Source: Rhodospirillaceae bacterium (GTDB lineage: Bacteria > Pseudomonadota > Alphaproteobacteria > CACIAM-22H2). From it: 64,000 bases of DNA. Shown in pieces: positions 19,028-36,520 of this stretch. How positions within the stretch are numbered: position 1 is the first letter of the stretch; the number at the start of each line of letters is the position of its first letter. The position numbers were made by a program, and so were the translations under genes. Location of the stretch: positions 1 to 64,000 of the forward strand of contig JALHMR010000005.1 in assembly GCA_022843945.1 (NCBI GenBank), given 5' to 3'. Under the pieces are notes generated by a model that had not been told where the DNA came from, made no database searches, and saw only the letters and a list, made by a program, of their open reading frames with translations.

Positions 19028-20032
19028 TCAGGCGGAGAAGTCCATCGGCTGCCCGCGGCCCGCCGCGAGCGCCCGCTCATAGGCCAGGGTGGCGGCGGCG
19101 ACATCGGTCAGCGCCGTGCCGGTCGAATCGAACAGGGTGATCTCGTCCGCCCGGCGACGGCCGGGTTTGCCGCCCGAGACGAGATCGGCCAGCTCGGCGT
19201 GAACATCGGCCCGGGTCATGATGCAGGCCTCGATGGCGTGGTGCAGGTCGCCCCCGGCGGCGCACTGGTCGAGGATGTCGACGACCACCGTCGCCGCCGC
19301 CATCAGCGCCGGCTCTATCTCGCTCTTGACCGGGTTGTCGGCGCCGACGGCCGCCACGAAGGTGCCGGGTCGCACGTCGTCGCGCCGCAGGAACGGGATA
19401 TGCGACGGGGTGCAGGTGACGGCGATGTCACTGAGCCGCAGCGCCGCGGGGAGGTCGGCACCCGCTTCGATCACGAGGTCGGTGTCGCGCGCCAGGGTTT
19501 TCGCCAGCGCCCCGATGCGCGCCGGATCGAGATCGAAAGCCAGGACCCGGCGCAGCGGCAGGATCCGGCTGAGGGCGCGCAGCTGGGCGGCCGCCTGGGC
19601 GCCGCAGCCGCACAGGGTGGCGACAGCGGACTCGGGACGCGCCAGGTACTTGGCGGCGACGGCACTGGCGGCGGCCGTGCGCAGAACGGTGATCTCCATC
19701 GAATCCATCACCGCCAGCAGGCGGCCGGTCGAGCCGTCGCACAGCACGACGGCGCCCTGGATGGTCGGCAGGCCATGACGCGCCGGGTTGCCGGGAAAAT
19801 TGGCGTTGGTCTTGGCGGCGAAGGTGCCCGGCGCCCCCTGCAGGCCGGCGGCCTTGACGTGAAAGCTGCCGTCCTCGGTCAGCACCCCAAGCGAGGCCGG
19901 GCCGCGGGCCCGACCCTGGGCATGCGCCAGGAAGGCTTCCTCGACCGCGGCGATGCAGCTGTCCGGATCGACCACCGCCGCCACGTCGCTGCGCGAGAGC
20001 AGCAGGGTCGGCGAAGAGGCTGCCCGCGTCAT
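19028..20032 (-). CDS. Ornithine cyclodeaminase/mu-crystallin family protein
   Basis: 334 residues. The substrate-binding N-terminal half contains FHVKAAGLQGAPGTFAAKTNANFPGN. A Rossmann fold follows (ATLCGCGAQAAAQLRALSRILPLRRVLAFDLD; ITVLRTAAASAVAAKYLARP). The family includes ornithine cyclodeaminases, alanine dehydrogenases and ketimine reductases using NAD(P)H. The exact reaction cannot be assigned. Its start overlaps the stop of the upstream MATE gene by 4 bp, so the two are translationally coupled and the exporter may handle the product or a related compound. Confidence 0.9.
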   Translation of the reverse strand: MTRAASSPTLLLSRSDVAAVVDPDSCIAAVEEAFLAHAQGRARGPASLGVLTEDGSFHVKAAGLQGAPGTFAAKTNANFPGNPARHGLPTIQGAVVLCDGSTGRLLAVMDSMEITVLRTAAASAVAAKYLARPESAVATLCGCGAQAAAQLRALSRILPLRRVLAFDLDPARIGALAKTLARDTDLVIEAGADLPAALRLSDIAVTCTPSHIPFLRRDDVRPGTFVAAVGADNPVKSEIEPALMAAATVVVDILDQCAAGGDLHHAIEACIMTRADVHAELADLVSGGKPGRRRADEITLFDSTGTALTDVAAATLAYERALAAGRGQPMDFSA

Positions 20033-21465
20033 GTGCGTCCCTCCGGCTTCTGCCAGGCCCCCGCCCGGAAGGCCGCCGCCAGGCTGGCGCCGTAGACCAC
20101 GAGGCTGGTGGCTGCGATCAGCGCCAGGCCGCTCAGGTCGGTGCCCGCGATACGCAGGGCGAGCCAGCCGCCGGCCACGACGACGAGCACGCGGGCGGTC
20201 ACCCCGAGCAGCGGCCAGAGCGGCCGGCCGGCCGCCTGGAACGACGTCGCCAAAGTGAGCCCGGCGCCGAGGAAGGGAAAGCCGAGGCCGAGGATGGCGA
20301 GATAGGCGGCCGCCGCGGCGTGGATCTCCGGCGTGGCGGCGAACAGGAACGTCCACAGGCCCGGCACGACGGCGCCGAGCAGGCCGATGGCGCCGGTGAC
20401 GGCGCCGGCGATCGCCGCGCCGGTCCAGACGATGCGCGCGGCACGCGCCCGGTTGCCGGCGCCGATATTGGTGCCGACCATGGCGAGCAGGCCGGCGCCG
20501 AGGCTGAAGGCCAGCGGGTACACCAGGTATTCGAGCCGCACGGCGATGCCGAAACCGGCCAGCGCCGTGGCACCGAGCGAGGCGACGTAACCGGTGAGCA
20601 CGGCAAGGGCGAAGTTGTAGAGCAGCGGCTGCAACGACATCGGCGCGCCGACGCGCAGGATCTCGATGAACAGCCGCCGACTCAGCCGCACACCGCGCAG
20701 TGAGAGCCGGATGGCGGTGCGCCCGGAGGCGATATACCAGGCGAGGAAGGCGGTCGAGGCGACGAAGGAGAGGACCGTGGCGATCCCCGCGCCGGCGATG
20801 CCGAGCGGCGGCAGCGGCCCGGCGCCGAACATCAGCACCGGCACCAGGGCGATGTGCAGGATCTCCGCCGCGATATAGACCGCCGCCAGCACGGCGGCCT
20901 GGCCGGCGCCGCGCACCACGCTGGTCAGCGTGCTGAGCAGCCAGTAGGCCAGCGCTCCGGCGAAGATCGCATTCGAGTACTCGACGGCCGCCGCCAGGCT
21001 CTCGCCGCTGCCGCCCATCGCCGCGTAAAGCGCGGGGCCGCCGAGAAGCAGGACCGCCGAGAAGAGCGCGGCCATGCCGGCGGCGATGACCACCGCATGC
21101 ACGACCAGCGCCGAGGCGTCCGCGTGGCGCCCGGCGCCGATGGCGCGGGCGACGGCCGAGGCGACGGCACCGCCCATGCTCGAATTCGAGACCTGCTGCA
21201 GCAGCATGATCAGGGGAAAGACCAGCGACAGCCCGGCCAGCGCGGCCGGGCCGAGCCGGGCGACGAAGTAGGCATCGACCGTGGCGGTCACGGCGATGAG
21301 CACGATGTTCACCATCAGGTTCGGCGCCGCCAGGCGCAGCAGCGTGGCGACGATCGGGCCCTCGAGAAGCAGCTTCGTGCGGGAAGCCGCCGGATTCTGC
21401 GCGGGTGTGCCCGGGCCGGGGGCAGCGCCGGTGGTCGGGGAGATTGAACCGCGTGCGTCGCTCAT
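20029..21465 (-). CDS. MATE-family multidrug/metabolite efflux transporter
   Basis: 478 residues from the ATG at 21465, which has a GGAG ribosome site; a start at 21549 would add a basic 28-residue extension without support. About 12 hydrophobic helices form two MATE repeats (LAAPNLMVNIVLIAVTATVDAYFVARLGPAALAGLS ... EILRVGAPMSLQPLLYNFALAVLTGYV). It probably exports small organic molecules using Na+ or H+ gradients. It is the first gene of a two-gene operon with the cyclodeaminase-like gene. Confidence 0.92.
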   Translation of the reverse strand: MSDARGSISPTTGAAPGPGTPAQNPAASRTKLLLEGPIVATLLRLAAPNLMVNIVLIAVTATVDAYFVARLGPAALAGLSLVFPLIMLLQQVSNSSMGGAVASAVARAIGAGRHADASALVVHAVVIAAGMAALFSAVLLLGGPALYAAMGGSGESLAAAVEYSNAIFAGALAYWLLSTLTSVVRGAGQAAVLAAVYIAAEILHIALVPVLMFGAGPLPPLGIAGAGIATVLSFVASTAFLAWYIASGRTAIRLSLRGVRLSRRLFIEILRVGAPMSLQPLLYNFALAVLTGYVASLGATALAGFGIAVRLEYLVYPLAFSLGAGLLAMVGTNIGAGNRARAARIVWTGAAIAGAVTGAIGLLGAVVPGLWTFLFAATPEIHAAAAAYLAILGLGFPFLGAGLTLATSFQAAGRPLWPLLGVTARVLVVVAGGWLALRIAGTDLSGLALIAATSLVVYGASLAAAFRAGAWQKPEGRT

Positions 21466-21603
21466 GGTCGCTCCTGCCCCGCTGGGGACTGGAGCAGAAC
21501 TTGGACGCGAGCGTCTTGGGGAAGCCGGGCGTCTGCCGTAGCCCGACACCGACTATCATGCGCCGATCGCGGATACTGTCAAGCCGTAGACCGGTTGGCC
21601 GGT

Positions 21604-36278: not shown

Positions 36279-36316
36279 AAAAGCAAAGAAGGGCTGCCCT
36301 TGCGAGCAACCCTTCC
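36279..36316 (-). terminator. Intrinsic terminator of the small mRNA at 36360-36447
   Basis: On the minus strand AAGGGTTGC pairs with GGCAGCCCTT (9 bp with one G-U), followed by CTTTGCTTTT. A second hairpin CCTCGG-CCTTCGT-CCGAGG lies just upstream at about 36328-36346. Confidence 0.75.
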
Positions 36317-36359
36317 ATTGTCTGAACCTCGGACGAAGGCCGAGGGACCAAAACTCAGG

Positions 36360-36431
36360 TCAGCCCACGCCCCAAGAAGTGGCAGTGGCAACCCAGGTCC
36401 CGGCATTGGTCCGAACGTGACAATGAGACAC
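36360..36431 (-). CDS. 23-codon ORF of an rreB-like small mRNA with extended Shine-Dalgarno
   Basis: GTG start at 36431 and TGA at 36362-36360. The peptide begins (M)SHCHVRTNAGTWVATATS and has no family known to me. It is preceded by a 17-nt exact complement of the 16S rRNA 3' end (36431-36447) and followed by two hairpins and a U-rich terminator, giving a transcript of about 170-190 nt. This matches rreB of Bradyrhizobiaceae and rreR of Rhodobacteraceae: a tiny ORF, GTG start and 16-17-nt ribosome site, where translation is weak and the mRNA is held on ribosomes. Homology of the peptide itself is not claimed. Confidence 0.75.
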   Translation of the reverse strand: MSHCHVRTNAGTWVATATSWGVG

Positions 36432-36447
36432 TGGATCACCTCCTTTC
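36431..36447 (-). promoter_or_regulatory. Extended 17-nt Shine-Dalgarno sequence
   Basis: Minus-strand GAAAGGAGGTGATCCAG is an uninterrupted complement of the bacterial 16S 3' end CTGGATCACCTCCTTTC. Its last G is the first base of the GTG start codon. Ordinary sites pair over 4-7 nt; this length is expected to trap the 30S subunit. Confidence 0.85.
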
Positions 36448-36506
36448 GGTTGTTAGAACAGGACCTCCACTATGGAGTCGCGTCGCCGGAGACACAAGGG
36501 GTTGTT

Positions 36507-36520
36507 TTGACCCAGGTCAA
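36507..36520. promoter_or_regulatory. FNR/FixK-type binding site
   Basis: TTGAC-CCAG-GTCAA fits the TTGAY-N4-RTCAA consensus of the FNR/FixK/DNR group exactly and is a perfect palindrome in its arms. It lies 56 bp upstream of the DUF2892 gene and about 60 bp upstream of the extended ribosome site on the other strand, so it could control either or both. Confidence 0.6.

Follow-up and report, generated by a model that had tools for sequence, protein, structure and literature searches.

The stretch of DNA analysed here (the window) comprises 64,000 nucleotides, and the locus lies on its minus strand between a plus-strand YgaP-like gene and, on its own strand and past a spacer, an alpha/beta hydrolase gene. 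The central feature is an extended Shine-Dalgarno sequence (SD), GAAAGGAGGTGATCCAG (36431-36447), which a preliminary description of this DNA had taken to be a 17-nt perfect complement of the 3' end of 16S rRNA. The assembly lacks the 3' end of the organism's own 16S, but the complement agrees with 16S sequences from the same genus and the same family; the same-genus 16S 3' end reads, in antisense, ...TTAGAAAGGAGGTGATCCAGCCGC..., and the complement is therefore exactly 17 nt, as had been claimed. A 15-mer of this sequence is unique in the 5.38-Mb assembly, and its first 14 bases are found in one exact copy in the window, where 0.16 matches are expected when up to two mismatches are allowed. 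The 17th base (G36431) is also the first base of a GTG start codon; thus the SD is placed at the start codon as described earlier, and instead of abutting it overlaps it by one base.

The GTG codon opens a frame of 23 codons (36431-36360, peptide VSHCHVRTNAGTWVATATSWGVG) ending with TGA, and downstream of it lies an intrinsic terminator, a hairpin at 36316-36287 with a T-rich tail reaching to about 36279; in both respects the preliminary description was correct. A putative promoter was found by eye, with TTGTGT (36492-36497) as the -35 and CATAGT (36469-36474) as the -10 sequence, separated by a 17-nt spacer. A consensus promoter scan gave no match for this pair at the locus; the position of the pair fits the trace left in the 133 loci presented below, including an upstream T/TTG trace at -50 to -47, and the locus from the same genus has a similar promoter-like pair, TTGTCG-N17-CATACT. 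From the putative pair, transcription is predicted to begin near 36462 and to give an RNA of about 175-180 nt.

The locus was not reported in a scan of Rfam at the gathering level. When the scan was run by E-value, it gave a full-length match (36290-36455, minus strand, model positions 1-159) to RF01867, the Caulobacter sRNA CC2171, with 74.7 bits (E 7e-16), which is 0.3 bit under the cut-off of 75. For the homologue in the same genus the score is 77.3 bits, above the cut-off. Judged by sequence, the locus is a homologue of RF01867: it has the same SD, the same GUGUCUCAUUGUC start region, GACAAUGGA, the terminator, and before the terminator the pairing CAUUGUC:GACAAUG, called P1a below. The printed structure of the model has P1a and differs from the locus in having no helix between the SD and an anti-SD. 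It should be noted that RF01867 is filed as a non-coding sRNA, whereas its consensus itself reads as a 22-codon ORF starting with VSHC. At E <= 0.001 the family is found in 26 of 142 genomes of the class and in one of 14 control genomes, that of Caulobacter vibrioides. RF01867 is among the families improved with one covarying pair in the Rfam 15 paper (PMC11701678), and a copy is listed in a survey of Mesorhizobium (PMC5596092). A literature search for rreB, rreR, CC2171 and RF01867 found no functional paper.

The preliminary description compared the locus to rreB of the Bradyrhizobiaceae and to rreR, a gene of the Rhodobacter/Roseobacter lineage, and the design is indeed of this type: a 17-nt SD, GTG or another start codon, a tiny ORF and a terminator, all in a short unit standing alone. 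The class is defined by a 16S complement of at least 16 nt ending at the start codon; at the locus it is 17 nt. The peptides of the class reportedly have 14-18 residues and the transcripts are said to be under 200 nt. The predicted transcript of about 175-180 nt at the locus encodes 23 residues with VSHC and TW motifs, which is beyond the reported peptide length. One of our loci (L205; 14 aa, 8-Mb genome), which is probably rreB, and two others (L214 and L217; 18 aa), which presumably are rreR, match RF01867 at 34.6-44.5 bits, below the cut-off; these assignments were made from ORF length and genome size and not from names. The rreR-like loci retain P1a in the form CATGGTT:GACCATG. RF01867/CC2171 and rreB are apparently the same class, which ties together a gene so far regarded as a non-coding sRNA and two genes regarded as isolated curiosities. 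The earlier suggestion of an extension to a new lineage does not hold, nor is this a new class, the locus being a homologue of RF01867 and such genes being present in many Alphaproteobacteria; sites of this kind are said to have been seen already in Rhodospirillales, Caulobacterales, Rhizobiales and Rhodobacterales.

A search of related genomes for the motif followed by GTG had been suggested beforehand, and a search of this kind was productive. Among 385 genomes of the class, 84 contain the pattern GGAGGTGATCC-N-DTG and 2 the reversed pattern. Of the distinct loci from this pattern scan 81 were inspected, and 61 of these have the AAGGAGG form and a short ORF; the remainder look like chance. 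In a scan of named genomes, Methylobacterium, Bosea, Microvirga, relatives of Roseomonas, Brevundimonas and others were among the matches listed. The working set consists of 133 non-redundant homologous loci from Alphaproteobacteria. Because the SD string served to collect the loci, with the TG in CATTG as an additional criterion for the named set, the invariance of the SD and of two P1a bases is partly by construction; the SDs of CM-found members are near-perfect, not always perfect.

Some genomes have two copies: Methylobacterium tarhaniae carries L073 and L125, and genome G034 carries L246 and L264, one of the MSHCH type and one rreR-like. The copies of each pair are probably paralogues, and because G034 has both, the rreR-like and the VSHC-type elements look like paralogues as well. 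An identical or almost identical extended SD is also found in front of other ORFs. At L005-L009, L035, L038, L185, L234 and L235 the ORF that follows it is a different one of about 55-63 aa, which has a Cys and an N-terminus resembling a signal peptide, and two examples of this ORF had no Pfam match; at L011-L021, which belong to a sibling genus within the same family, the ORF is again different and mostly of 39 aa (MR.GSF... or VKQGSF...). The 3' part of one further locus (L188, 2082-2157) weakly matches the Bradyrhizobiaceae sRNA BjrC68, with 25.5 bits against a cut-off of 39.

A conserved helix that masks the SD with a mimic of the 16S tail is brought out by these data. The mimic is a segment in codons 12-15 of the ORF, CTGGGTTGCC (36387-36396), which can form 10 contiguous pairs with GGTGATCCAG (36431-36440), a stretch made up of the 3' part of the SD together with the start codon's first base and the base that precedes it. 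It resembles the 16S tail (CUGGAUCACC) and reads Thr-Trp-Ile/Val in most loci. Compensation is seen for all four states of the base before the start codon (A-T, T-A, G-C and C-G): when this base is A the partner segment is CTGG[AG]T, when it is T the partner is CAGGAT, with G it is CCGGAT and with C it is CGGGAT. Of the 133 loci, 49 have a contiguous SD/anti-SD helix of at least 7 bp, where shuffling of the ORFs gives 3.5 with a maximum of 11, and the helix was predicted by RNAalifold, unprompted, from a 60-sequence alignment. The covariation amounts to six double-change cells against 0.6 after shuffling, with none of 500 shuffles as high, and its score is above that of all versions in which the helix was slid. 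The double changes are limited to one pair, that of the base before the start codon, since the ribosome constrains the SD. Permuting this base and counting best helices alone gives a signal modestly over chance, since the base is A in most loci; the cross-table and the shuffled-ORF test are more telling. In the rreB/rreR-like loci and in other derived ones the helix may be absent.

The second long-range helix, P1, pairs codons 2-10 with the segment just before the terminator. In P1a, CAUUGUC (CATTGTC in the DNA, 36419-36425; codons 3-5, read as His-Cys) is paired with GACAAUG (GACAATG, 36316-36322) directly before the terminator. Compensated variants are CAAUGUC:GACAUUG, CAUGGUU:GACCAUG, AUGAGAUU:AAUCUCAU and GUGAx:xUCAC, and double changes occur in seven of the nine pairs, a result reached in 0 of 500 shuffles. 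In P1b, TTCGGAC (36409-36415) within codons 5-10 is paired with GTCCGAG (36328-36334), 5' of GACAAUG. When partners were swapped across a wide 3' region the mean effect for P1 was weak; anchoring on the pre-terminator motif gave a clear result for P1b, with a pairing score of 15.9 against 13.1 +/- 0.34 for permuted partners (maximum 14.3 of 2000), about 8 SD above. The comparison of loci supports well that both helices are real. As the strands of the SD helix and of P1 interleave, the two must form a pseudoknot or be mutually exclusive. In a nested energy model, which ignores pseudoknots (P1a and the SD helix could coexist), the RNA of the locus is bistable, with -83.9 kcal/mol when the SD helix is forced and -84.0 kcal/mol when P1 is forced; in the same kind of folding the mean probability of the SD helix over 49 loci falls from 0.88 in short 5' transcripts to 0.18 in the full-length RNA.

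The explanation we favour, and which we hold to be somewhat more probable than all others together, is that the locus encodes a bistable, ribosome-facing small mRNA of the RF01867/rreB class, standing alone and about 175-180 nt long. The layout, the long SD, the kept ORF and the two pairings can be read from the sequences, and from these we infer a gating by 30S subunits. In the nascent RNA the SD/anti-SD helix would form first and hide the start, leaving the A-rich 5' side free as a toehold. Once the 3' end has been made, P1 would compete and the SD would become available. A 30S subunit could then take the SD, the 16S tail displacing its mimic from the free 5' side, and would meet the helix of codons 2-10 a few bases past the start, where it would be held and initiate rarely. 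A ribosome that does initiate would open both helices, read about 24 codons and stop before the 3' strand of P1, and selection would act on the reading and on the RNA fold, not on the peptide. Such gating would account for the retention on 30S subunits and the weak translation reported for rreB, whose mRNA is said to co-sediment with 30S. The role is likely to be sensing or tying up free 30S subunits; this is a guess from the anatomy, with which the ribosome-occupancy role proposed in the preliminary description is in keeping.

The arrangement is like that of toehold or bistable translation switches, in that a complement in cis hides the SD while its 5' side is free for invasion, and unlike them in that the natural invader at the locus would be the 16S tail itself. 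A wider version of the model, possible and to be taken as tentative, is that the class represents a widespread natural toehold switch, opened when the 16S tail displaces its in-message copy, which reports or captures free 30S subunits and has its ORF only for the passage of ribosomes. If so, bacteria would have a means of sensing or buffering free small subunits for which there is now a directly testable model.

A special form of our favoured explanation is that the RNA is a 30S decoy which sequesters ribosomes when initiation is slow, translation serving only to trigger its decay. A perfect 16S complement of 17 nt with a blocking helix behind it is what such a decoy would have, and the sedimentation of rreB RNA with 30S and its stabilisation when a stop replaces the start codon, as both are reported, would fit; a decoy would, however, require a high copy number, and we regard this form as unlikely.

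Whether the ORF is read and whether its peptide matters are two separate questions, and the answers appear to differ. Of the 133 loci, 123 have a frame-0 ORF that closes after 17-30 codons; for the two other frames the numbers are 16 and 24. The stop codon is TGA, TAA or TAG, so it is the place of the stop that is kept and not its sequence. The offset of the anti-SD falls in one frame in 45 of 52 cases. Gaps in close pairs are multiples of three in 19 cases and not in 62 within the ORF, against 14 and 112 downstream; as this periodicity is not strong, the conservation of the frame rests mainly on ORF length, and on the anti-SD offset in second place.

The preliminary description considered a functional peptide, and a gene whose 18-30-residue product is what matters, the RNA features only tuning its translation, would explain the GTG or ATG start, the open frame with its kept stop and the recurrent VSHC and TW residues. 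These motifs recur, however, because they are dictated by the two RNA pairings: the conserved residues lie on paired strands and change along with the pairing, and the others drift. The third-position conservation that had been proposed as a check is not seen, substitutions in 48 independent close pairs being 140, 146 and 139 by codon position, and 116, 114 and 113 outside the paired codons. Purifying selection on the amino-acid sequence was not found in the 48 close pairs of equal ORF length, where a crude test gave a dN/dS of about 0.8, and the same-genus copy differs from the locus by compensating indels inside the ORF. A small-peptide gene is thus quite improbable. Homologous loci with a broken ORF and only the SD kept had been named as the contrary outcome, and the result is mixed: the ORF stays open and closes at about 24 codons, and it is its sequence that drifts. 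Apparently the reading of the ORF is selected and the sequence of the peptide mostly is not. These data suggest that conservation of an ORF can lie in its being read, with the peptide left to drift, and such ORFs should not be counted as peptide genes.

The same observations bear on the proposal that the RNA is a non-coding sRNA acting in trans, which would pair with other RNAs through its SD-like string and its 3' region and would carry the ORF incidentally. CC2171 is classed by Rfam as an sRNA, and the unit does stand alone with its own terminator; on the other hand the length in frame 0 varies far less than that in the two other frames, TAA, TGA or TAG at the same place argues for reading, and the SD is exactly placed for the start codon, so that we see little likelihood in this proposal.

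An attenuator or leader of a downstream gene, which the short ORF, the alternative RNA folds and the terminator resemble, is hardly credible, as no neighbour is shared and the commonest neighbour family is found at 7 of the 133 loci in mixed orientations. A role as a cis leader was rejected because there are no conserved neighbours among the 133 loci.

Two further elements were seen in the window. A perfect FNR/FixK-type palindrome, TTGACCCAGGTCAA (36507-36520), which is unique in the window against an expectation of 0.04, is placed between the YgaP-like gene and the putative promoter of the small mRNA, and probably serves the YgaP-like gene. On the minus strand at 21494-21546, close to where a MATE-like ORF (20029-21549) begins, there is a chrB-b RNA (RF03086) with 50.5 bits, above the cut-off.
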